A DNA stretch of 64,000 nt from NCBI RefSeq assembly GCF_000245015.1, contig NZ_JH600070.1, positions 2,142,634-2,206,633 of the forward strand. Direction: 5' to 3'. Source of the stretch: Beggiatoa alba B18LD (lineage in GTDB: Bacteria; Pseudomonadota; Gammaproteobacteria; Beggiatoales; Beggiatoaceae). The first letter of the stretch is position 1; every line of letters starts with the position of its first letter. This document shows, in pieces, positions 8,301-20,246 of this stretch. The notes below the pieces were generated by a model, which saw only the letters and a program-made list of their open reading frames with translations, had not been told where the DNA came from and made no database searches. The translations under genes and the position numbers were made by a program.

Positions 8301-9646
8301 ATGGAAGAACTCCCAGAATTATTTAAAGAGCAAAAGTGGGTTGGCGAGTTTTATGTTAGAAAACTACAGCCCACTTCAGATGAAGATGAATATTTACGTT
8401 TTTTAGGAGAAATTAATTTTTCGCCTGAAAATGGGCTTACTCTTTATTATTCAACAAGTTCAATGCTATGCAAAACTAAAGGTGTTATTTATGGAATTCT
8501 CATGACAGGAGAGAGATGTAGTCTTATTGGTGGAAAACTCCCAGAACTCCAATTTCCTACCCTTAGAAAAGGGCAAATGACTCATCAAGGTCTGATAAGT
8601 TGTTCATGTCTGTTTATTAATGATCATATTGAAGAGGATACAACCTTTCATGAAGTAACCTTTACTGTAACAAATATGCAGGAATTTTTTATTCCACAAG
8701 GCTATAAAAATCATGTGGGATTTACTAAAGAGTCCTTACTAAAAGTAGATATGGATTATGAACATATTTCAGTGGGTAACTATGGTAGTTTTTTGTTTTT
8801 AGGAAAAACGCTATATCACCGCAATAGTGAAGCGTTGATGGAACTAACAAACTGTTTAGAACAAATTCAAAAAAAATACTCATCAGAAGACTTTCTTGTT
8901 AGAAATGACATGGTTTATAAAGTAACACTGCATTTTAAACAGGAAGAAAATATAAAGAATATTTATAAGCGGATTACCGATATAGCTGACTTATTTGCTA
9001 TTTTAATGTACAAACCAGTTTATCCAGAAAGTATAGAAATCTCTATTAGAACGACAGATTCTCCTCATCCTCCTCTTAAAGTTAAAGTCTATCCTGCCAC
9101 GATTATCAGTCCAAGAACACTGGAATTGTGCCTTAAAGAAAGAAAGCACTTCGATTTACCAATTACAGCAAGAAATATTGACTTATCTAAAGTTATGACG
9201 AAATGGCTGGAAATATTAGATAAATATTCTGTTGTAATATCTAATATTCAAAATGATACACCCTATTTTGATAGACACTTTTTATATGGTTCGCTCGTTT
9301 TATATGTTGCTCAGTTAGAAGCAATTACGATAGCTGATAATGCTGATCATTCTATAAGATTCGAGTATCCAATTACTACTTACGGAACACCTAAAATTAA
9401 AGACAAGTTATCCAAATTATTAGCCACTGACAGTGAAAAGAATCTTGGGCAACGTATTAGTGAATTGCGAAATCAGATTGCTCATGTCGGAAAAACAAAG
9501 ATATTATCAATAATCTTTCAATGCCATCTATGGTTGAAATAGCTCAATATATGAGATTAGTAATTTTCAGCTATATACTTCATCAATTAAAAATAGAAGA
9601 AGAAACTACCCATAATTATTTAAGTAGGTTTTCTCCAGCAGAATAA
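8301..9646 (+). pseudogene. ApeA-like HEPN antiphage protein, frameshifted near the C-terminus
   Basis: The uninterrupted frame runs 8301-9542 (413 residues). Its first 300 residues resemble the ApeA N-terminal domain (FLGEINFSPENGLTLYY, VIYGILMTGERCSLIGG). The C-terminal part carries the HEPN ribonuclease motif RNQIAH (Rx4H) at about residue 395. Directly after it, at A-run 9491-9495, homology moves to the -1 frame: adding one A gives a continuation GKNKDIINNLSMPSMVEIAQ and a hydrophobic helix MRLVIFSYILHQL, ending at stop 9644-9646 (about 448 residues). ApeA-type HEPN proteins are abortive-infection RNases that act on host RNA after phage infection. The gene is 4 bases after the RNase gene and more AT-rich than it, consistent with acquisition. 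Family assignment is from motif memory, not a search. Confidence 0.62.
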
Positions 9647-9738: not shown

Positions 9739-10573
9739 ATGAACATCAACGCCGCCATCATTGACCAGCGTCTCAATGCTTTAATGAATGAAATACGAGA
9801 AAACGCTGAAAATGAGTTAAATAACCTGAGTTCGGCGAATTTCTTTTAAAAAGACAACAAGTTGTCTGAATCAGGATTAGCAGGATTAAAAAGTGTGATT
9901 TACCTGACTTTTTGGTTTGAGGGTTTTAAATCCTGTTAATCCTGAAAATCCTGATTCAGACAATGTTTTAATCTTGTCTGGAGAATCCCGATGAAAAACA
10001 AGAGAGCAATCTCTGCCAGTCCTTCAAACCTTTTCGCCTGTTCCGACAGACCTGCTAGGTTTTTAAAACCTAGCAGGTCTCTGTTTTATTTTATAAATCT
10101 CGCCAAACTCAGGTTAAATATCAAAGACGATGATAGATTAAAATCACTGGCGTTTATTTATCTCACCGTAAAAACCGTTCTTAATCTATCGGATACAGAA
10201 ACCTTTGATTGTTTAACCGAAGGCGGGGGAGATTTTGGCGTTGATGCGGTTTATATTTCTGACCCCATAGACAATGAATTTACCGTTTGTTTATTTCAGG
10301 GGAAATATCAACGAAAATTAGAGGCAACTGCCAATTTTCCCGAAAATGGGATTAAAGCCCTTATTTTTGCAGTACAACGGTTATTTGACCCTTCCTTTAA
10401 AATCAGCCATATCAACCCGCGATTAGCCAGCAAATTAGCGGATATCCTTTCCTTTATTCATGATGGTTATATTCCGCAAGTACGTCTTATTGCTTGCAAT
10501 AATGGACTTTGTTGGAACGAATCCACACAGCAAGAAATTAACCGAATACAAGCAAACTTAGGTAATCAAACCC
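9739..10573 (+). pseudogene. AIPR-like (abortive phage infection) gene, N-terminal part, split by a palindromic element and truncated
   Basis: ATG 9739 opens 28 codons (MNINAAIIDQRLNALM...ENELN) ending exactly at 9822. Coding resumes at 10120 with IKDDDRLKSLAFIYLTVK, then CLTEGGGDFGVDAVYIS and VCLFQGKY, and ends at about 10570 (NRIQANLGNQ), where a second element begins. The TEGGGDFGVDA segment and FQGKY strand resemble the restriction-like N-terminal domain of AIPR proteins. Removing 9823-10115 plus one AAAT joins the halves in frame. About two thirds of the expected protein is missing. An ATG at 9991 inside the element, with GGAGA at 9980-9984, reads in frame into the second part and could express a 200-residue chimera. 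Confidence 0.6.
9823..10115. mobile_element. Palindromic MITE-like element, copy 1 (complete)
   Basis: A 293-base element starting AACCTGAGTTCGGCGA and ending TCGCCAAACTCAGGTT, so the ends are inverted repeats. It contains two inner hairpins: one from GTCTGAATCAGG to CCTGATTCAGAC, and one around the dyad CTAGGTTTTTAAAACCTAG. AAAT flanks both sides (9819-9822 and 10116-10119), consistent with a target-site duplication. No transposase is encoded. Confidence 0.85.
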
Positions 10574-10738
10574 GAGTACGGCGAGTTTTATAAAATAAAA
10601 CAGACATCTACTAGGTTTTCAAAACCTAGTAAGTCTGTCGGTAACAGGATTTAAAACCCTCAAACCAAAAAGTCAGGTGAATCACGCTTTTTAATTCTGC
10701 TCATTCTGAAAATTCTGTGAATTCTGATTCAGACAAAA
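10569..10738. mobile_element. Palindromic MITE-like element, copy 2 (lacks one end)
   Basis: Begins AACCCGAGTACGGCGAG, runs through the CTAGGTTTTCAAAACCTAG dyad and the CTGATTCAGAC end of the long hairpin, then stops at about 10738 without the terminal AACAGAAACTC...CAGGTT piece. Orientation is opposite to copy 1. It terminates the AIPR-like reading frame. Confidence 0.75.
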
Positions 10739-10745
10739 GAAAGAC

Positions 10746-11303
10746 CTAAACCATAACACAAGCAACCCGTTCATCTAATGCCAACACTGCCCGCTTAATT
10801 ACCGTGACTGCAACTTGCAAACGCTCATCATGACATAAACCCAAAACAACACTATTTAAATGCTCAATATAAGCTTTATTTAAAGCCGCTTTCCCCTCTT
10901 CATAAATCAAAGGAATTGCAGGCTGTAACACAACCAGTTGCGAAAAAAATTGATTCGTAATTGTAAAACACTGATTTAAATAAGCCTCTAAATCAGGAAA
11001 ATCAACATCTGTCATTCCTTGAATATCACCCAAGGTATAAGCCATAAAATCAATAGGCGTGCGATCCGTGATAAAATCGGTTGGCGCATCATGCCAGCTC
11101 ATTGTGGCACTGTTTAAAACCCGCTGTTGTATCCATAATCGAGTTTTAAAATCCATCGGTTTAGCAGGGTCTAAACCATACTCTTGAAAAACAGCACTGG
11201 TACTTGTCGCTAAAAAAGGCATCCCTGTTTTTTCTGCAATAGCACGCGCCAACGTGGTTTTACCCGTGCGGTGACCGCCACATAAACCAATTCTCATAAT
11301 CAT
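10746..11303 (-). CDS. P-loop NTPase, NadR-like/AAA_28 type
   Basis: A cytosolic nucleotide-binding protein of about 185 residues with a Walker A motif GGHRTGKTTLA at the N-terminus and a TDRTPIDFMAYTLGD segment in mid-protein, resembling the NadR-like kinase/NTPase group (AAA_28). The substrate is unknown. ATG 11303 (MIMRIGLCGG) or the second ATG at 11297 is more likely than an upstream start at 11348, which would overlap divergent holB. It lies between a truncated mobile element and holB. Confidence 0.7.
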   Translation of the reverse strand: MIMRIGLCGGHRTGKTTLARAIAEKTGMPFLATSTSAVFQEYGLDPAKPMDFKTRLWIQQRVLNSATMSWHDAPTDFITDRTPIDFMAYTLGDIQGMTDVDFPDLEAYLNQCFTITNQFFSQLVVLQPAIPLIYEEGKAALNKAYIEHLNSVVLGLCHDERLQVAVTVIKRAVLALDERVACVMV

Positions 11304-11324
11304 TCCATTCTGTAACAATAAACG

Positions 11325-12317
11325 ATGATAACCGCTTTTCCTTGGCATGAGCCATTATGGCATACAATTCACACGGCTTATCAAAAAGATAGACTGCCTC
11401 ACGCGCTCCTATTTTGTGGTGTGCAAGGGATGGGAAAAACAGCACTTGCGCAACGTTTAGCCGCATTATTACTCTGTGAAACACCTTTAGCAGACGGAAA
11501 CCCCTGCCAACAATGCAAAGCCTGTCAACTGCGACAAGCCAATAATCACCCTGATTTTTTAGAAATTGCCCCCGCCGAAGCAGGTAAACAAATTTTAATC
11601 GATCAAATTCGACAACTCATTCAATTTTGCGCACTCACGTCCCATCATGGACGCTACCAAGTTGCTTTAATTCACCCTGCTGAAGCAATGAATCACAACG
11701 CCGCTAATAGCTTACTGAAAATATTAGAAGAGCCACCCGCTAAAACCGTTCTGCTCCTTGTCAGTCATCAACCCAGTGCCCTAATGGCGACAATACGCAG
11801 TCGTTGCCAGCGTGTTGACTTTTCTAAAGTTAATCCCGCAGTGACACAACAATGGCTTAGTCAACAATTGCCAAATCATCCCGCTATTCCCTTACTGCTC
11901 AATCTCTCCGCACAAGCCCCGCTCACCGCTTTAGCCTTAGCCCAAGGTGACGCATTGAACCAACGCCAGCAACTGTTAGATAGCCTTATCAAACTCCCAA
12001 CAGGGCAAGAAGAACCGATTAAAGTGGCTGAATTATGGGGACAAATGGAAGCCATCCAAGTCATACATTGGATGTTAAGCTGGACAATGGACTTAATCCG
12101 CCTACAATTAGCAGGGCAACAAAGTCCTGTGACAAATATTGATAAAAGAAACGCGCTACAAGGACTTGCGCCCACCGTACCACTTCCCCGCCTTTTTGAA
12201 TTGCTAGAAATGGAAAAAGAAGCCTATCAATTAATTAAAGGAACAAGCAATGTAAAGCCTCAAGGCTTATTTGAAAGTTTAGCCATCACATGGGGACGGG
12301 TACGGCGTAAAGAATAA
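11325..12317 (+). CDS. holB: DNA polymerase III subunit delta prime
   Basis: Clamp-loader subunit that helps open and load the beta sliding clamp. The 330-residue protein has a Walker A motif GVQGMGKTALAQR at about 33-45, the zinc-binding cysteine cluster CQQCKACQLR near 63-72, the HPAEAMNHNAANSLLKILEEPP segment of clamp loaders, and an SRC motif (IRSRCQRVDF). The usual neighbours tmk and pilZ are not adjacent, so this gene has been moved or its context broken. No clear promoter was identified in the 21-base divergent gap. Confidence 0.93.
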   Translation: MITAFPWHEPLWHTIHTAYQKDRLPHALLFCGVQGMGKTALAQRLAALLLCETPLADGNPCQQCKACQLRQANNHPDFLEIAPAEAGKQILIDQIRQLIQFCALTSHHGRYQVALIHPAEAMNHNAANSLLKILEEPPAKTVLLLVSHQPSALMATIRSRCQRVDFSKVNPAVTQQWLSQQLPNHPAIPLLLNLSAQAPLTALALAQGDALNQRQQLLDSLIKLPTGQEEPIKVAELWGQMEAIQVIHWMLSWTMDLIRLQLAGQQSPVTNIDKRNALQGLAPTVPLPRLFELLEMEKEAYQLIKGTSNVKPQGLFESLAITWGRVRRKE

Positions 12318-12364
12318 TAAACTAAATACTGCCAATTCTGAAAATCTTGATTCAGACAAAAGCG

Positions 12365-13537
12365 TTAAATCTTAACTTGTGCCTTTTCCCAACGACTTAA
12401 GGCTTGATGAATCAATAAATTTTGCCCTTGAATCCATTCCGCTATAAACATTTCTTCTAAGGCTAAACGGGCAGGATGTTGAGAAATAGGGGTTTTCCCT
12501 TCGGCTAATAATTCCGCTTCTAAAATTGTATATAACTGCATCCATACCGCACAATCATGGCTACGATTACGCCAATCTCCCGCAAAGGCAGTACCAGGAC
12601 ATTGTCCTTTACACATTAAGAAAAAGCGACAATCTTGACAGCCTTGATAATGTTGCGGGGTATGATACAAGGCTAAATACCGTTCAAAGCCTTCTATATT
12701 TGCTTTAACAAAATCAATGCCTTCTTTATTTGTCCGCCCACAATTACGCCGTTGTCCGTGTCCTTCCACACTACGTACAGCGCGAGTGGTGTAGGCATCG
12801 CAAGCCTTCCAGACACAAGTCACGGGCGCGTCATCGCCTAATAATAAACAGCGCATATCGTGAAAAATATCAAATCGTAACTGGCTCAAGGTTTTTTCTA
12901 ATTCAAGAAAACTTTGTAACGCGGCTAAATTTTCCGTATCACTGAGGGCATATTGTTGCGCAATAATTGGGTTATCAATTTCTAAAATATGTAACCGTAC
13001 TGAACGAATCCCAAGCTGTTCCATGTCTCGTAACCAAGTATGTAACAAAGGTAATTTGTCAGCCCGTGCATTGCCTTGATGTAACGTAATGATTAAACCC
13101 GCTGGAATACCCAACGCGCATAATTTTTCGATAGCCTGCTCTGTTTTCGCCGTTGCCTCGCGGGTTTTACGATAAGTGCCTGCCCAACGGACATCATTTA
13201 ATTCTCCCCCGCCATCAATAGAAATGCCAACATGCACATTATATTTTTGAAATAACTGAATATGTGCATCCGTGATTAACGTCCCATTGGTTTGCAAATT
13301 ATTCTGCCCATAACGGGCAAATCCCCACGCCCACAAGGTTTCTAAATCAGCTAACGGAATTAATAAAGCCTCTCCTCCAAATAAACTAAAGGGTTCATTT
13401 TCCTGTGCCAAACTTGCCAGCATTTTAGGAATATCATAATGATGCGTGACATTATCCGCATCGCGTTGTGGGTTTTGATAGCAATATTGACATTGAATAT
13501 TGCATTTAACCCCTAAAGGACGAAGTTCGACAGACAT
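12365..13537 (-). CDS. Radical SAM protein with SPASM-like C-terminus
   Basis: A 390-residue enzyme with the radical SAM cluster motif CxxxCxxC at Cys12/16/19 (CNIQCQYC), a GGE-like motif (LFGGEALL), and TNGTLI and SIDGGGELND strands of the TIM barrel. The C-terminal part has a cysteine-rich segment (CQDCRFFLMCKGQCPG, then a late Cys) as in SPASM/auxiliary-cluster enzymes that modify peptides or act as sulfatase-maturating enzymes. I saw no precursor peptide in the flanks and no sulfatase. It is divergent from the propeller genes, with 153 bases between. Substrate unknown. Confidence 0.82.
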   Translation of the reverse strand: MSVELRPLGVKCNIQCQYCYQNPQRDADNVTHHYDIPKMLASLAQENEPFSLFGGEALLIPLADLETLWAWGFARYGQNNLQTNGTLITDAHIQLFQKYNVHVGISIDGGGELNDVRWAGTYRKTREATAKTEQAIEKLCALGIPAGLIITLHQGNARADKLPLLHTWLRDMEQLGIRSVRLHILEIDNPIIAQQYALSDTENLAALQSFLELEKTLSQLRFDIFHDMRCLLLGDDAPVTCVWKACDAYTTRAVRSVEGHGQRRNCGRTNKEGIDFVKANIEGFERYLALYHTPQHYQGCQDCRFFLMCKGQCPGTAFAGDWRNRSHDCAVWMQLYTILEAELLAEGKTPISQHPARLALEEMFIAEWIQGQNLLIHQALSRWEKAQVKI

Positions 13538-13628
13538 GATAAAAACAACTTTATTGCTTTTCCTGATTGGGTGATGAATTAGACGTAAAAAAGTTTCTAG
13601 TCAAGTAATTTTTATAATTATTTTTTTA

Positions 13629-13656
13629 TTGCATAAAATTCATAACGATATATACT
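13629..13656 (+). promoter_or_regulatory. Sigma-70-type promoter of the first propeller gene
   Basis: TTGCAT (13629-13634) and TATACT (13651-13656) with a 16-base spacer. AGGA at 13681-13684 is the ribosome site for ATG 13691. The same arrangement is repeated at 16504-16531 before the second gene. Confidence 0.6.
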
Positions 13657-13690
13657 CAGTTGTAATCAACTGGTTTTAAAAGGATATTTT

Positions 13691-16330
13691 ATGCATTTTT
13701 ACCTAAGAGTTTTATCGCTACTAAGCTTATTCTGCCTCATTGTTCCATTGAGTTGGGCTGGGGAAGATGAGTGGACTATGTTTGATTTACCTGATGCTGG
13801 AACAGGGTTTTTAGATACTAGCGCAGTACCATCTGGATTAATTTTATCGAATACCTACCAAAGTATGGATAAAGGAGAAAGTTGGACGGCTATACAACAA
13901 ATTGATTATTCCCTTAATAACCGCTCAATACGCTATCGAAAAGACCCAACTGCTGATATTTGGTATGGCGTAGATAATGACTTCTCAGGTATTAGTGCGT
14001 TTTACAAACGCATCGGCTTATATGGTAAATGGGCTGAAGTTGTGGCTGATAATGGTTTTGCGTTACCACCTATACAAATAGTGCATTCATGGGTTGCAGA
14101 GGGGGCAGATATTTTAGCAATTGCGCCAACTCAACCTGCAACAATTTATGCTTGTGTTACGCCCATAACTAATGGTTACAGTTATTTAGATGAAAATATT
14201 TACCGTTCACAAGATGGCGGAAAACGATGGTATCCAATTTATTCTCTTGAGAAACCTGTCAATAGATTTTTAGCCAGAACCTTAGTCGTTGACCCCAACT
14301 CACCCAATACATTGTATATTTTAGGGCAAGAGACTATGGAGGCTGATGCTAATGGTAAGTATAAATATAAACTTTACACAAGTCATAATGCTGGGAATGA
14401 CTGGACAGAAACAGCACATAATACCATTGAAACTAATTATATTGCTTTATTAAGTACACGCAATACACTGTCAGCCGTCGCAACAACGCCAACAACACTT
14501 TATTTGAATACAAATAATCCCACATCATCCGAATTATTCCAAACAACGGTAACAGGGAATATTTGGGAAAAGCTTTCCCTTCCTTCTGCCTTAGATAGAG
14601 TTGGTTTAGTGCAGGATGATTTATCTATAGAGTTAATTCCTAGTAAAACAGCACTATATGCTATCATCTCACCATATTATCAATATGAAGAACAGGATAG
14701 ACTTTATAAGCTTACTCATAACAGTGTTAATTGGACAGAATTAACGAGCGATTTATTCCCCTCAACCTATTACCAACTGGTTATAGACTCTGAGGACGAA
14801 AACACCCTTTATCTCACAACAAAAGAGAATATTTTAAAAAGTAGTGATGAAGGAGAAAGTTGGCAATTAAGCAAAAAAGGCTTAAAGAATAGGAATATAG
14901 AAAAACTATTTAGTACGCCAACGACACTGTATGCACTGACAAATGGGGAGTTGTTTCAAGTAACAGATAAAGGCAAAACATGGACTAATTCAAATCTGCT
15001 TTTTCCCGCTATTCGTTTTCAAACCATAAACACCACGCTAGAAGCCACGAAAGTTTACGGATATACAAAAGATTGCAAATCGTTATATGTTAAACAACAG
15101 GGGCAAGAAGCTGTTTTTCATCCACTCCCAACGACTTTCCATCTATGTAGTGTAGATAGGACACAAGTGATATTACACACCGTTCCTTATGATGCTAAAA
15201 CCCTATATGCAGTCGCTCCTGCGGGAAACAGTCCGTACTCAAGTGTAGATACGGAACAAACAGATAAACTCACAACCCCACAAATTTTAAAAAGCACTGA
15301 TGATGGCGCAACATGGACAACACTTTACACATTGCTAAATCAACGTCAGTTTACATTAGTTCCAGACCCTATCACGCCGAAAACACTTTACGCATCCGTT
15401 GAAGCATTGGGCATTATGCGCAGTATTGACGATGGCGCGACATGGGAATTGCTGACTGATAAATTTGCAGGGATAAAGTTGTATGATTTTAAAGTATTAC
15501 CTACAACACCACGTACTTTCCTTGTTGTGCAACGACTGGGCGAACAACTCACACTTCTTAAAAGTACAGATGAAGGTCGTAATTGGGTTACCAGTATTCA
15601 AAGACTAGACGATTTTTATCCGTTTGTATTACAAGCGCATAAAACCTCAGAAAATAACTACCTGCTATACAATTTGGTGGAAGATATCCTATATAAAAGT
15701 AGTGATACGGGAGACAGTTGGTGTCCCATTATTCCTTTCCCATTACCGCAACTCAATATACCAACTTTTGCAATAGATTCGACAGACGATAATACAGTCT
15801 ATGCTTATACGTATACGTATGACGGCGACTTAGTAAAATACATGGTAGCAACATACACACCAACAACAAAGGAGTTTGTCAATCAGTTAAATGCTTATAA
15901 TCTAACAACAAACTCACTTAATGACGCTATCATAACGGGGAAAATACAGCGTGATAGTTGTGAGACAGGTGGAAGATATGCATCTGTGCCTTTATCAGCA
16001 ACAGTAGATATACAAGGGAGTATTGAGCCATTACCTGAACACATTGGACAAACAGCGGATATTGTTGTTTATGCACTATATGCTTTTGGTAGTGGGTCTA
16101 TGTATTTTATGCTGGGGGATAATACGATTCAGGTTTGGGAGCATGCAATGGAAAACACATCAGAGTTAATTCCGTTTAAACAAGGAATTACATTGCAAGC
16201 TAAAAATGATATCCCTTTATATAAAGGACAGTTTCTTGCAGCAGGTCGTCTCTATATTTCTTTTGGTTATCGTTTAGCAGACGGAACAGTTATTGTTAAT
16301 AAAAAAGAACTCACTGTTGATATTTTTTAA
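13691..16330 (+). CDS. Secreted Asp-box (BNR) beta-propeller protein, copy 1
   Basis: An 879-residue exported protein with a clear signal peptide (first about 23 residues, cleavage after LSWA). I count nine Asp-box motifs of the form S/TxDxGxxW: MDKGESW, QDGGKRW, NAGNDW, DEGESW, DKGKTW, DDGATW (twice), DEGRNW, DTGDSW. These mark sortilin-, YCF48- or sialidase-like propeller blades. The last 130 residues (from about ITGKIQRDSCETGG) form a separate beta-rich domain repeated in copy 2. No sialidase catalytic set was recognised; binding or assembly is as likely as enzymatic activity. It is the first unit of a tandem duplication of about 2.8 kb that includes promoter and terminator. Confidence 0.82.
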   Translation: MHFYLRVLSLLSLFCLIVPLSWAGEDEWTMFDLPDAGTGFLDTSAVPSGLILSNTYQSMDKGESWTAIQQIDYSLNNRSIRYRKDPTADIWYGVDNDFSGISAFYKRIGLYGKWAEVVADNGFALPPIQIVHSWVAEGADILAIAPTQPATIYACVTPITNGYSYLDENIYRSQDGGKRWYPIYSLEKPVNRFLARTLVVDPNSPNTLYILGQETMEADANGKYKYKLYTSHNAGNDWTETAHNTIETNYIALLSTRNTLSAVATTPTTLYLNTNNPTSSELFQTTVTGNIWEKLSLPSALDRVGLVQDDLSIELIPSKTALYAIISPYYQYEEQDRLYKLTHNSVNWTELTSDLFPSTYYQLVIDSEDENTLYLTTKENILKSSDEGESWQLSKKGLKNRNIEKLFSTPTTLYALTNGELFQVTDKGKTWTNSNLLFPAIRFQTINTTLEATKVYGYTKDCKSLYVKQQGQEAVFHPLPTTFHLCSVDRTQVILHTVPYDAKTLYAVAPAGNSPYSSVDTEQTDKLTTPQILKSTDDGATWTTLYTLLNQRQFTLVPDPITPKTLYASVEALGIMRSIDDGATWELLTDKFAGIKLYDFKVLPTTPRTFLVVQRLGEQLTLLKSTDEGRNWVTSIQRLDDFYPFVLQAHKTSENNYLLYNLVEDILYKSSDTGDSWCPIIPFPLPQLNIPTFAIDSTDDNTVYAYTYTYDGDLVKYMVATYTPTTKEFVNQLNAYNLTTNSLNDAIITGKIQRDSCETGGRYASVPLSATVDIQGSIEPLPEHIGQTADIVVYALYAFGSGSMYFMLGDNTIQVWEHAMENTSELIPFKQGITLQAKNDIPLYKGQFLAAGRLYISFGYRLADGTVIVNKKELTVDIF

Positions 16331-16341
16331 ATTTTAATCCT

Positions 16342-16383
16342 AAAAGACGTTTAACAAATCTGTTTTGTTAAACGTCTTTTTTT
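16342..16383 (+). terminator. Intrinsic terminator of propeller gene 1
   Basis: AAAAGACGTTTAACAAA (16342-16358) pairs with TTTGTTAAACGTCTTTT (16364-16380) and is followed by further T. It starts 12 bases after the stop codon and is duplicated after the second gene. Confidence 0.9.
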
Positions 16384-16503
16384 ATTCGAGCTACTTAACA
16401 GTTTTTCCCTTCTGCACGGAATGAAGAAAAAAAGAAGCAATAGCAATGAGTAAATCAGAGATAAAAAAGTTTCTAGTCAAATAATTTTTATAATTATTTT
16501 TTA

Positions 16504-16531
16504 TTGCATAAAATTCATGATGATATATACT
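16504..16531 (+). promoter_or_regulatory. Sigma-70-type promoter of the second propeller gene
   Basis: TTGCAT (16504-16509) and TATACT (16526-16531), spacer 16 bases, a near copy of the promoter at 13629-13656. AAGGAT at 16555-16560 precedes ATG 16566. Confidence 0.6.
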
Positions 16532-16565
16532 TAGTTGTAATTAACTGGTTTTACAAGGATATTTT

Positions 16566-19229
16566 ATGCATTTTTACCTAAGAGTTTTATCGCTACTAAG
16601 CTTATTCTGCCTCATTGTTCCATTGAGTTGGGCAGGGGAAGATGAATGGACAATAATTGATTTACCTGATGGTGGGTCAGGGGTTTTAAATACTCGGTCA
16701 CTTGATACTAGTACAGTACCATCGCGATTAATTTTATCAAATAGCTACCAAAGTATTGATAAAGGAGAAAGTTGGACAGCCATACAACCTGTCGGTTTTG
16801 ATAATATCACAATACGCTATCGAAAAGACCCAACTGCTGATATTTGGTATGGTGTAGAGAACTACTCAGGTCTTAGGGCATTTTACAAACGCATCGGCTT
16901 ATATGGTGAATGGGTTGAAGTTGTGGCTGATGATGGTTTTACTTTACCACGACGACAAATAAACTCTGGTAATGGGTCAGATATTTTAGCGATTGCGCCG
17001 ACTCAACCTGCAACAATTTATGCTTGTGTTACGCCTATCACTAATGATTACAATCAGTTAAATGAAAATATCTACCGTTCACAAGATGGTGGAAAACGAT
17101 GGTATGCGATTTATTCTCTTGAGAAACCTGTCAATAGATTTTTAGCCAGAACTTTAGTCGTTGACCCTCACTCACCCAATACATTGTATATTTTAGGGCA
17201 AGAGACTACAGAGGCTGATGCTAATGGTCAGTATAAATACAAACTCTACACAAGTCATAATGCTGGGGATGACTGGACAGAAACAGCACATAATATCCTT
17301 GAAGCTGGGTATATTACTTCGCTAAGTCTGCTCAATACACTGTCAGTTGTCGCAACAACGCCAACAACACTTTATCTGAATACAAATAACTCCACATCAC
17401 CCGAATTATTTCGAACCACCATAACAGGGAATGCTTGGGAAAAACTTCCCCTTCCTTCTGCCTTAGATAGAGTTGATTTAGTGCAGGATGATTTATCTAT
17501 AGAGTTAATTCCTAGTAAAACCGCACTCTATGCTATTGCCTCATATCGATATATAAAGGACAACATAAGCCCATTTAATCCGACTAGAGAGGATAAACTT
17601 TATAAACTCAATCATGACAATGTTAATTGGACAGAATTAACCAGCGACTTATTCCCCACACCCCATTATTACTCTTCATTCCATTACCGTTACCAACTGG
17701 TTATAGACCCTGAGGACAACAATACCCTTTATCTCACGACTGAAGATAATATTCTAAAAAGTAGTGATGAAGGAGAAAGTTGGCAATTAAGCAAAAAAGG
17801 CTTAAAGAATCGGAGCGTAGAAAATCTATTTAGTACGCCAACGACACCGTATGTTCTGACAAATGGGGAGTTGTTTCAAGTAACGGATAAAGGCAAAACA
17901 TGGACTAATTCAAATCTGCTTTTTCCCGCTATTCGTTTTCAAACCATAAACACCACGCTAGAAGCCACGAAAGTTTACGGATACACAAAAGATTGCAAAT
18001 CGTTATATGTTAAACAACAAGGGCAAGAAGCTGTTTTTCATCCACTCCCAACGACTTTCCATCTATGTAGTGCAGATAAGACACAGGTGATATTACACAC
18101 AGTTCCTTATGATGCTAAAACCCTATATGCAGTTGTTCCTGCGGGAAACAGTAAGTATTCAAGTGTAGATACTGAACAAGCAGATAAACTCACAACCCCA
18201 CAAATTTTAAAAAGCACTGATGATGGCGCAACATGGACAACACTTTACACATTGCTAAATCAACGTCAGTTTACATTAGTTCCAGACCCTATCACGCCGA
18301 AAACACTTTACGCATCCGTTGAAGCATTAGGCATAATGCGTAGTATTGATGATGGCACGACATGGGAATTGTTAACCTATAAATTTGTAGGAGTAGAGTT
18401 GCTTGATTTCAAAGTATTACCTACAACACCACGTACTTTCCTTGTTGTGCAACGACTGGGCGCACAATTCACACTTATTAGTACAGACGAAGGTCGTAAT
18501 TGGGTTACCAGTATTCAAAGACGAGACAATTATTATCCGTTTGTATTACAAGCGCATAAAGCCTCAGAAAATAACTACCTGCTATACAGTTTAATGGAAA
18601 ATATCCTATATAAAAGTAGTGATATGGGAGATAGTTGGTGTCCTATTGCACCTTCCCTATCATTGCAAAACAACATACATAATTTTGCAATAGATTCAAC
18701 AGAAAATACGTTCTATGCACGTCTGTATGACAGCGACTTAGAAAAATACATGGTAGTAGCATACACACCAACAACCAAGGAGTTTATCAATCAGTTAGGT
18801 GCTTACAACCTAACAATGGACTCAACCAACAACGCCATTATAACGGGGAAAATACAGCGTGATAGTTGTGAGACAGGTGGAAGATATGCATCTGTCCCCT
18901 TATCAGCAACAGTAGAGATACAAGGAAGTATTGAGCCATTACCTGAACACGTTGGACAAACAGCAGATATTATTGTTTATGGAGCATATTATGCTTTTGA
19001 TAGTGGGTATATGTATTTTATGCTAGGGGAAAATACCATTCAGGTTAGAGAGCTAGGAACTGAGTTAATTCCGTTTAAACAAGGGATTACATTGCAAGCT
19101 AAAAACGATATCTCTTTATATAAAGGACAGTTTCTTGCAGCAGGTCGTCTCTCTATTTTTTTTGGCTACCGTTTAGCAGACGGGACGGTTATCGTTAATG
19201 AGAAAGAACTCACTGTTGATATTTTTTAA
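16566..19229 (+). CDS. Secreted Asp-box (BNR) beta-propeller protein, copy 2
   Basis: An 887-residue paralogue of the preceding gene with an identical signal peptide, the same set of Asp-box repeats and the same C-terminal domain. Relative to copy 1 it has short insertions (near residue 30 and in the stretch around 325-375) and lacks one residue before the DEGRNW box. Similarity is uneven: the stretch around 17865-18350 is almost identical to 14945-15430 at DNA level, whereas the flanking thirds differ frequently. That pattern suggests gene conversion or selection on a shared core. Likely periplasmic or extracellular. Function unknown. Confidence 0.82.
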   Translation: MHFYLRVLSLLSLFCLIVPLSWAGEDEWTIIDLPDGGSGVLNTRSLDTSTVPSRLILSNSYQSIDKGESWTAIQPVGFDNITIRYRKDPTADIWYGVENYSGLRAFYKRIGLYGEWVEVVADDGFTLPRRQINSGNGSDILAIAPTQPATIYACVTPITNDYNQLNENIYRSQDGGKRWYAIYSLEKPVNRFLARTLVVDPHSPNTLYILGQETTEADANGQYKYKLYTSHNAGDDWTETAHNILEAGYITSLSLLNTLSVVATTPTTLYLNTNNSTSPELFRTTITGNAWEKLPLPSALDRVDLVQDDLSIELIPSKTALYAIASYRYIKDNISPFNPTREDKLYKLNHDNVNWTELTSDLFPTPHYYSSFHYRYQLVIDPEDNNTLYLTTEDNILKSSDEGESWQLSKKGLKNRSVENLFSTPTTPYVLTNGELFQVTDKGKTWTNSNLLFPAIRFQTINTTLEATKVYGYTKDCKSLYVKQQGQEAVFHPLPTTFHLCSADKTQVILHTVPYDAKTLYAVVPAGNSKYSSVDTEQADKLTTPQILKSTDDGATWTTLYTLLNQRQFTLVPDPITPKTLYASVEALGIMRSIDDGTTWELLTYKFVGVELLDFKVLPTTPRTFLVVQRLGAQFTLISTDEGRNWVTSIQRRDNYYPFVLQAHKASENNYLLYSLMENILYKSSDMGDSWCPIAPSLSLQNNIHNFAIDSTENTFYARLYDSDLEKYMVVAYTPTTKEFINQLGAYNLTMDSTNNAIITGKIQRDSCETGGRYASVPLSATVEIQGSIEPLPEHVGQTADIIVYGAYYAFDSGYMYFMLGENTIQVRELGTELIPFKQGITLQAKNDISLYKGQFLAAGRLSIFFGYRLADGTVIVNEKELTVDIF

Positions 19230-19240
19230 ATTTTAATCCT

Positions 19241-19281
19241 AAAAGACGTTTAACAAATCTGTTTTGTTAAACGTCTTTTTT
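19241..19281 (+). terminator. Intrinsic terminator of propeller gene 2
   Basis: Same AAAAGACGTTTAACAAA stem and T tail as at 16342-16383, 12 bases after the stop codon. Confidence 0.9.
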
Positions 19282-19312
19282 ATTCGAGAAAAATCTCTCT
19301 TTAACCTGAGTT

Positions 19313-19542
19313 CGGCGAGTTTCTTTTAAAAAGACAACAGTTTGTCTGAATCAGGATTCACAGGATTTTCAGGATTAGCAGGATTAAAAAGCGTCTTTCA
19401 CCTTAATTTTTTGGTTTAAGGGTTTTAAATCCTGCTAATCCTGATTCAGACAATGTTTTAATCTTGTCGCACGTTCTGACAGACCTACTAGGTTTTGAAA
19501 ACCTAGCAGATATCTGTTTTATAAAACTCGCCGAACTCAGGT
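19313..19542. mobile_element. Palindromic MITE-like element, copy 3
   Basis: Starts AACCTGAGTTCGGCGAG and ends CTCGCCGAACTCAGGT, with the long GTCTGAATCAGG/CCTGATTCAGAC hairpin and the CTAGGTTTTGAAAACCTAG dyad inside. Its orientation matches copy 1 and is opposite to copy 2. I see no obvious target duplication. Confidence 0.8.
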
Positions 19543-19634
19543 AAATTAGCAATTTCACGCACAGCGACACGCTCAATAAAAACACGACTAAAGTTAAAAT
19601 CCTCAATAATTGCCTTACCAGAAAATTGTAAACT
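19543..19634 (-). pseudogene. Internal fragment of an AIPR-like gene
   Basis: The minus strand encodes about 30 residues, beginning SLQFSGKAIIEDFNF and ending VAVREIANL, with no stop until the adjacent element. The pattern of a GKAI-EDFNF strand followed by a RVF-I--V-V-EIA segment resembles the part of AIPR proteins just after the N-terminal domain. It has no start, is bounded on both sides by mobile-element sequence, and is on the opposite strand to the N-terminal fragment at 9739-10573. Recognition is from memory of the family and should be checked by profile search. Confidence 0.45.
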
Positions 19635-19676
19635 AACTTGAGTTCGGTGAGTTTCTGTTAAAAAGATAACAGCTTT
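19635..19676. mobile_element. Palindromic MITE-like element, terminal fragment only (copy 4)
   Basis: AACTTGAGTTCGGTGAG through TAACAGC matches only the first 40 or so bases of the element. This is the piece missing from copy 2 at 10738. It ends at the stop codon of the FixH gene. Confidence 0.6.
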
Positions 19677-20246
19677 TTAATTCGTTGTTGCTGAAAATGG
19701 TTGCAGTGACAATGCTGTTTCGGCTACAGGCATACGAACGGATGTTAACAACCGCCAGTTATGTACTGATGCTTGCTCGTTGTGACTATCGCCTTCTTTT
19801 TCCTTACCATTATCAGGTGTTAATTGTACATACCAATTTCCTTCAATCAGTTGGGGTAATGTACCAATATATGTATCATCACCTGCACGCTTTAAAATTT
19901 GCGTTTGGTCATGACCTGCACGGGTATGATGCAGGAATGATAACGTTAACATGTCAGGATGGGGATAATTTGAAGATGACTTCAAGGTCAATAAAAGCAT
20001 ATTCTGTGTTTTATCTAGTTGAATATGTGCTTCTAAGCCATAGTTGACAGCGACTTTGTCACGGGCTAAGGTCATATTAATCGCAAGACCTTGTTTATAA
20101 TAGTCATCAACGACCATGCCATCATCTGATTCTATCGCAAGGTTCAGGGTAATAAATCCTGCAACAATTGCCAAAACGGGAAAGAAAATAACAAACCATA
20201 CATAGGGTTCTTGATACCAGCGAGTCATAATTTTATCAGTAGGCAT
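19677..20246 (-). CDS. fixH: FixH/CcoH-family cytochrome cbb3 oxidase assembly protein
   Basis: A 189-residue membrane protein with one N-terminal transmembrane segment (about residues 14-34, WFVIFFPVLAIVAGFITL) followed by the FixH signature SDDGMVVDDYYKQGLAIN and a periplasmic beta-rich domain (SSNYPHPDMLTLSFLHHTRAG, GNWYVQL). CcoH/FixH is needed for stable assembly of cbb3-type oxidase, possibly with copper delivery. It follows ccoG by 2 bases. The ccoNOPQ structural genes are not in this window. The stop codon lies at the edge of a mobile-element fragment, so the last residues may not be ancestral. Confidence 0.88.
   Translation of the reverse strand: MPTDKIMTRWYQEPYVWFVIFFPVLAIVAGFITLNLAIESDDGMVVDDYYKQGLAINMTLARDKVAVNYGLEAHIQLDKTQNMLLLTLKSSSNYPHPDMLTLSFLHHTRAGHDQTQILKRAGDDTYIGTLPQLIEGNWYVQLTPDNGKEKEGDSHNEQASVHNWRLLTSVRMPVAETALSLQPFSATTN

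Follow-up and report, generated by a model that had tools for sequence, protein, structure and literature searches.

A locus of Beggiatoa alba B18LD raises the question of how a single gene came to be broken up, with its parts on both strands and at either end of a block of about 9 kb. The analysed window is a stretch of 64,000 nucleotides (G000:C2:2142634-2206633) of this genome, which comprises 4.27 Mb (4,265,146 bases) in three contigs; positions below are those of the window unless a contig (C) or another stretch (L) is named. An initial annotation, made from the letters alone, had suggested that it might hold an AIPR-like gene split by inversion through one mobile element. Our analysis indicates that the gene is indeed split, its parts being three collinear pieces of one homologue that lie on opposite strands across the 9-kb block, and that repeats resembling miniature inverted-repeat transposable elements (MITEs) stand at both borders. 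Inversion of the intervening DNA is the simplest explanation of AIPR pieces on opposite strands, and we put the probability that they were split by an inversion, through recombination between inverted MITE-like copies, at roughly 45%.

A search of the genome with the 564-residue protein of an intact homologue (G091) gave three matches in all, every one at this locus. Piece 1 (9739..9825, plus strand) covers homologue residues 1-29 with 59% identity (E = 0.06 alone); piece 2 (10102..10572, plus strand), in which genuine AIPR sequence begins at ~10117, covers residues 23-176 with 52% identity (E = 1.6e-44); and piece 3 (19536..19634, minus strand) covers residues 199-231 with 58% identity (E = 5.9e-5). 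In an alignment of 13 proteins (13 of the homologue loci fetched plus G091, less L269, which gave no clean frame), the three pieces are collinear with the intact homologues, and the minus-strand fragment of about 30 residues belongs, as had been suggested, to the same protein as the 10102-10572 frame. The gap between pieces 2 and 3 amounts to 23 residues in 13 of the 13 aligned homologues; the pieces are therefore read as one gene that has lost 23 codons and everything after residue 231. The initial annotation had foreseen a coding stretch missing between the fragments, which these 23 residues bear out, but the last 333 residues (232-564) are lost as well: they had no match anywhere in the genome at E up to 10, a threshold at which the homologue query also found no match in G001, the only congener found (a single contig of 4,265,317 bases), or in G003.

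The intact homologue carries the PF10592 AIPR domain at residues 238-466 (E = 2e-50) and matches the PADLOC model for AbiU (E = 1.5e-41). Pfam searches of the frame 9991-10590 and of the minus-strand fragment gave no AIPR match, since PF10592 begins beyond the surviving part; that both fragments fall in one AIPR family, a point on which a profile check had been proposed, was thus settled in the affirmative by homologue alignment and not by Pfam. Homologues were matched in 3 of 369 genomes in a class-wide search with the window's AIPR frame (our own included; G091 with 52% identity over residues 38-194) and in 46 of 398 genomes, again including our own, in a phylum search. Judged by its sequence, this is a real but decayed gene of predicted AIPR-type (AbiU-like) defence function, and no function would now be expected of it, with the PF10592 domain gone and the remainder in three pieces.

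Elements or element ends are present at each break in the gene. The element ends (TAACCTGAGTTCGGCGAG), scanned with up to three mismatches allowed, matched 456 places in the B. alba genome, 3 in G001 and 1 in G003, compared with 1, 0 and 0 for the reversed pattern used as a control; the contrast between 456 and 3 end matches is a lineage-specific burst of elements. In a sample of 447,004 bases (the window and 20 further stretches of the same genome, 5 of them chosen around genes of interest), both ends were present in 30 elements of 181-466 bp, 28 of which measured 181-320 bp. All 30 paired copies show the features of MITEs, being short, free of transposase and bounded by terminal inverted repeats; 11 have a target duplication of 5-9 bp (e.g. 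TATTATA) and the other 19 do not. An insertion sequence (IS)-like unit at L175:6904-7818 has ends that are similar, not identical, to those of the elements (TAACGCGAGTACGGCGA versus TAACCTGAGTTCGGCGAG) and encodes a PF13612 transposase, which we take to be of the IS982 family. The repeats are MITE-like and probably IS982-related, and this unit is a candidate parent.

In a full copy, a palindrome accompanies the L end, the opposite end is the R end, and an inner module, flanked on both sides by TTGTCTGAATC and made up of AATCCTG-like repeats, usually lies between the two ends. A script could assign a direction to 32 modules; 14 of these were joined to the link on the beta side and to the R end on the alpha side, 11 to the R end on the beta side and to the palindrome on the alpha side, and 2 to R ends on both sides, with 5 in other classes. 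A coarser count of 41 modules gave 16 R-link, 15 R-palindrome, 4 link-palindrome, 2 R-R and 4 others. When checked by eye, one of the two R-R modules held (L167:2483-2594; L176:14669-14797 is not R-ended on one side), as did two of the four link-palindrome modules (L167:3905-4016 and L176:10233-10334), so that three modules overall had been misclassified by the script. Two side observations concern the module itself. Three inner modules stand in tandem, spaced by ~150 bp, at C2:1855606-1856009 (L002-L004), and the module seems able to multiply separately from the element ends; two 181-bp elements (L170:18636-18816 and L183:13365-13545) are entirely without it and look like a simpler form to which the module was added.

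Within the locus, repeat copies lie at 9822-10116, from 10568 onward, at 19302-19544 and at 19634-19676. Copy 1 (9822..10116), of link type, is inserted in the AIPR gene, where it parts piece 1 from piece 2, and retains both terminal inverted repeats and a 6-bp target duplication (TAAATA). Another link-type copy (19302..19544) has no target duplication, and a fragment of an inner module (12310..12361) lies between holB and a radical SAM gene. The two remaining features are copy 2 at the left border and a lone R end at the right.

Copy 2 (10568..10748) is best read, from its parts, as a hybrid that joins the two common element types, with a link-type left half and a palindrome-type right half, truncated at the stop codon of an NTPase gene. 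On its left side, the palindrome is followed by GTCTGTCGG, as in the link type, the link of this copy and its module's beta end having been lost; on its right side, the alpha side of the module is joined to AAAAGAAAGACCTA, and the palindrome module is read as starting with bases 10737-10748. Across this joint runs the 22-mer AGGTCTTTCTTTTGTCTGAATC (minus strand), which has one further exact occurrence in the genome, beside a whole palindrome at C2:1855606, and recurs with one or two mismatches at 13 more places; moreover, 13 of the matches listed for a copy 2 query span its bases 83-186, past window position 10737, with 79-98% identity. The copy thus ends at about 10748, not at 10738 as first annotated, and because it runs on into the palindrome module, the 40-base piece at the other border does not fit on directly. 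The idea that the two pieces are simple cut halves of one element is not supported, given these 11-12 further element bases, which lead into another module.

The piece at the right border (19634..19676) is, as the initial annotation had it, a lone element end in the orientation opposite to copy 2; that it is exactly the end that copy 2 lacks is not supported. It is an R end whose tip faces AIPR piece 3, and it is the sole case without an inner module and without a partner end among the 43 R ends of the sample (39 counted by script with a module, and 4 without, picked by eye from a script list of 36). It possibly extends 12-13 bases into module-like sequence (GCTTTTTAATTC), a match whose chance from random starts was 0.0007-0.005, depending on length and library, in a post-hoc test. 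That piece 3 moved together with its two elements by composite transposition was rejected: the 19634 end points its tip at piece 3, and this leaves no outer tip on that side.

The history that we propose begins with an AIPR gene that would first have died through repeated MITE-like insertion and later been split by inversion. In the ancestor, a link-type element would have stood in the gene, oriented so that residue 176 lay on the side of its L end and residue 199 on that of its R end, and the interval from the NTPase gene to fixH would have held a palindrome-type element in inverted orientation. Crossing over within the inner module that the two elements share would flip about 8.9 kb, comprising AIPR piece 3, two propeller genes, the radical SAM gene, holB and the NTPase gene. 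Hybrid copy 2, at the NTPase gene, would be the first product; the second, expected to be an R-module-R element, would since have been reduced to the lone R end beside fixH, and the 23 codons and the C-terminal 333 residues would have been lost by separate element-associated deletions. Orientation agrees with inversion, in that the L end faces piece 2 and the R end faces piece 3. The reading of copy 2 as a hybrid favours recombination between two inverted copies. Most of the 32 direction-read modules fall into the two main types, and the combination inferred for copy 2, beta-link/alpha-palindrome, is absent among them; the expected reciprocal class, R-R, has one true case in the sample, at L167:2483-2594. 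Absence of a target duplication was dropped as a sign of recombination, since only 11 of the 30 paired copies have one.

Several points weigh against this history. Some concern copy 2 itself: compared with the 30 paired elements alone, its bases after 10736 match 6 letters only, since at that place the usual joint lacks the C and is one T shorter, and a 12-letter match requires the wider set L002-L030, which was found with copy 2 itself. The left half appears to be of link type solely by virtue of GTCTGTCGG beside the palindrome. Since link-palindrome modules exist elsewhere (one of the two true ones in the opposite direction), a hybrid alone does not establish inversion, and gene conversion could make one as well. 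At the right border, a complete R-module-R element is not present, which makes a further deletion necessary, and the GCTTTTTAATTC extension may run in the orientation opposite to expectation. Piece 1 is weak by itself, as its E value indicates. In G001, the NTPase and fixH genes are not adjacent, and no relative with the pre-inversion order was found in G001 and limited stretches of other family genomes.

The gene order of the congener bears on a competing account that we regard as possible, namely that several independent element-associated translocations and deletions made a patchwork, with never one inversion of exactly this block. The stretches from smtB to rnb (1.99 Mb) and from yicC to fixH (3.75 Mb) in G001 are collinear with the window's two sides, and the genes of the block lie at separate sites: the NTPase-holB pair at 0.85 Mb, flanked by gshA and an NYN-like gene (named from their proteins), the radical SAM gene at 1.36 Mb and, at 2.66 Mb, the nearest propeller gene of full length (59% identity). 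The neighbours of these genes in G001 are in turn scattered in our genome (gshA at 0.84, NYN at 1.30, hom at 3.37 and rho at 3.90 Mb), and the NTPase-holB joint is the only one of the block that was seen in both. Element pieces at no fewer than three of the block's joints fit repeated events of this kind, as does the low share of paired elements that keep a target duplication of at least 5 bp (11/30). More events would be needed, on the other hand, to set two pieces of one small gene at the block's borders in opposed orientation, which a single inversion explains most simply.

Compared with this single congener, the block is a patchwork for which neither orientation can be taken as ancestral; with its genes at separate G001 sites, synteny neither proves nor refutes the flip. 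A synteny comparison had been put forward as a check on the inversion, and the one made against G001 proved uninformative, with only the NTPase-holB joint seen in common. Relatives with the same gene order and no AIPR gene, which would have spoken against the initial annotation, were not seen among those examined. Beyond G001, the gene-order check in the family consisted of tblastn searches of window genes in a single ccoG stretch per genome for G003, G004, G006, G008, G011, G019 and G022 and in two G003 holB stretches; a fixH search of genome contigs gave 80 loci, with at most 46% identity. That holB lacks its normal neighbours had also been counted as evidence of inversion, an argument that has to be given up. 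In a simple motif search of flanks of up to 1.5 kb around holB, some of them shortened by contig ends, a tmk-like motif was present at 0 of 25 family loci (and at 3 of 5 loci of other families, one of which, L057, with a long minus-strand frame, is doubtful), and the NTPase-holB pair occurs in the congener too. The holB neighbourhood is therefore uninformative on inversion.

An improbable alternative retains the single element of the initial annotation: cut at its small hairpin, the element would have been left as two halves, copy 2 and the lone R end, when 10739-19676 was flipped by illegitimate rejoining. The module of copy 2 stops at CAGACAA, and the AGCTGTT at which the lone R end begins adjoins this and overlaps it by 2 bases, although a module with the same CAGACAA boundary and no R end was found elsewhere (L173 14454). 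The uniqueness of the lone end among the 43 sampled R ends, the orientation of the AIPR pieces and the mere 6 letters matched in the 30 paired elements after 10736 would all suit such a cut. It would make a chance event of the match across the joint, where 10737-10748 lead into the palindrome module and the 22-mer has its one exact and 13 near matches; a loose test (at least 12 bases anywhere, wider library) gives 0.005 for such a match, and its place is also right. An exact hairpin split of one element was rejected as our principal explanation once copy 2 was seen to continue into the palindrome module. It is very improbable that two distinct AIPR genes decayed side by side and left pieces 2 and 3 as their respective remnants: the pieces do not overlap, so that a single reading frame is not directly demonstrated, but they cover adjoining residues, are similarly identical to one homologue, G463 (90/155 and 23/33 residues), and are joined by no further AIPR piece in the genome.

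The genes carried in the block would have moved together under the proposed inversion. A P-loop NTPase/kinase-like gene (10746..11348, minus strand; PF13521, E = 1.6e-7) is followed by holB, encoding the delta' subunit of DNA polymerase III (11325..12317, plus strand; PF13177, E = 2.8e-49), and by the radical SAM gene (12365..13537, minus strand; PF04055, E = 2.7e-11). Propeller gene 1, of the Sortilin-Vps10/BNR type (13691..16330, plus strand; PF15902, E = 1.3e-22), has a tandem paralogue of 84% identity in propeller gene 2 (16566..19229, plus strand); the products of this pair (13691-19229) have 880 residues, and the 3' flanks of the two genes are near-identical, including a terminator-like hairpin. 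The right border is formed by fixH (19677..20246, minus strand; PF05751, E = 3.9e-35), which in G001 (L099:15260-16207) is partly duplicated in tandem and encodes 315 residues, compared with 189 in the window.

Outside the block, an ApeA-like defence gene, recognized by its N-terminal domain (8301..9542, plus strand; PF18862, E = 5.7e-35), lies directly 3' of rnb. Its frame breaks near 9485-9495, just past an RNQIAH motif that is presumably HEPN-like, and another frame continues to ~9646; the break may mean that this defence gene, too, is dead, or may stem from misassembly of a run of A. In G001, PADLOC identifies a defence reverse transcriptase of DRT4 type at the same spot after rnb (L100:12277-13851; E = 5e-194), so that in both species defence genes may have a hotspot in the 3' flank of rnb.

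As a single locus this is an ordinary, decayed one; more interest attaches to the repeat family, whose types can be read. The locus shows the stepwise dismantling of a defence gene by a lineage-specific MITE-like burst, and the two main element types may mark recombinant copies, hence possible rearrangement borders, from sequence alone. A bolder and rather doubtful idea is that the AATCCTG-type module, which hundreds of elements share, has acted as a hotspot of recombination and reshuffled the chromosome since the split from the congener, with hybrids (link-palindrome and R-R) recorded at block borders; if so, the present locus would be one worked example of module-driven reshuffling.

Compared with known systems, the gene resembles members of the AIPR (PF10592)/AbiU-like family in that its pieces, set end to end, match intact homologues over their N-terminal 231 residues, and differs from the intact G091 protein in having no PF10592 domain and in being split in three. 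No published description of the repeat family in this species was found by title or abstract opening among the matches listed. In Beggiatoa leptomitoformis, transposon types 1 and 2, of 853 and 782 bp, have terminal inverted and direct repeats, as the elements here do by description, are longer than the elements in our window and in some cases carry transposase genes; two strains are there described as differing chiefly by transposons, with "no large rearrangements" (see PMC7356093). Candidatus Thiomargarita nelsonii, also of the Beggiatoaceae, contains abundant MITEs that interrupt genes, and the one in hupL, likened to ours by description only, is reported with a 10-bp direct repeat, a 19-bp inverted repeat and no likely ISfinder parent (see PMC4853749). 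Outside the family, there is a likeness to MITECca01 of Cardinium, an IS982-derived MITE of ~240 bp with 169 copies in one strain only: both are short non-coding elements that have spread in one lineage, with ends that in our case are probably like those of an IS982-type IS, and the Beggiatoa elements differ in holding a nested inverted AATCCTG-like module and in having two main types (see PMC9769881). The BrickBuilt MITE of Porphyromonas gingivalis likewise has an internal repeat, a tandem minisatellite set between a leader and a tail, and small inverted ends; its unit is 23 bp long and its 19 copies are always intergenic, whereas the Beggiatoa unit is of ~7-10 bp, the end matches number in the hundreds and at least one copy is intragenic (see PMC4596501).

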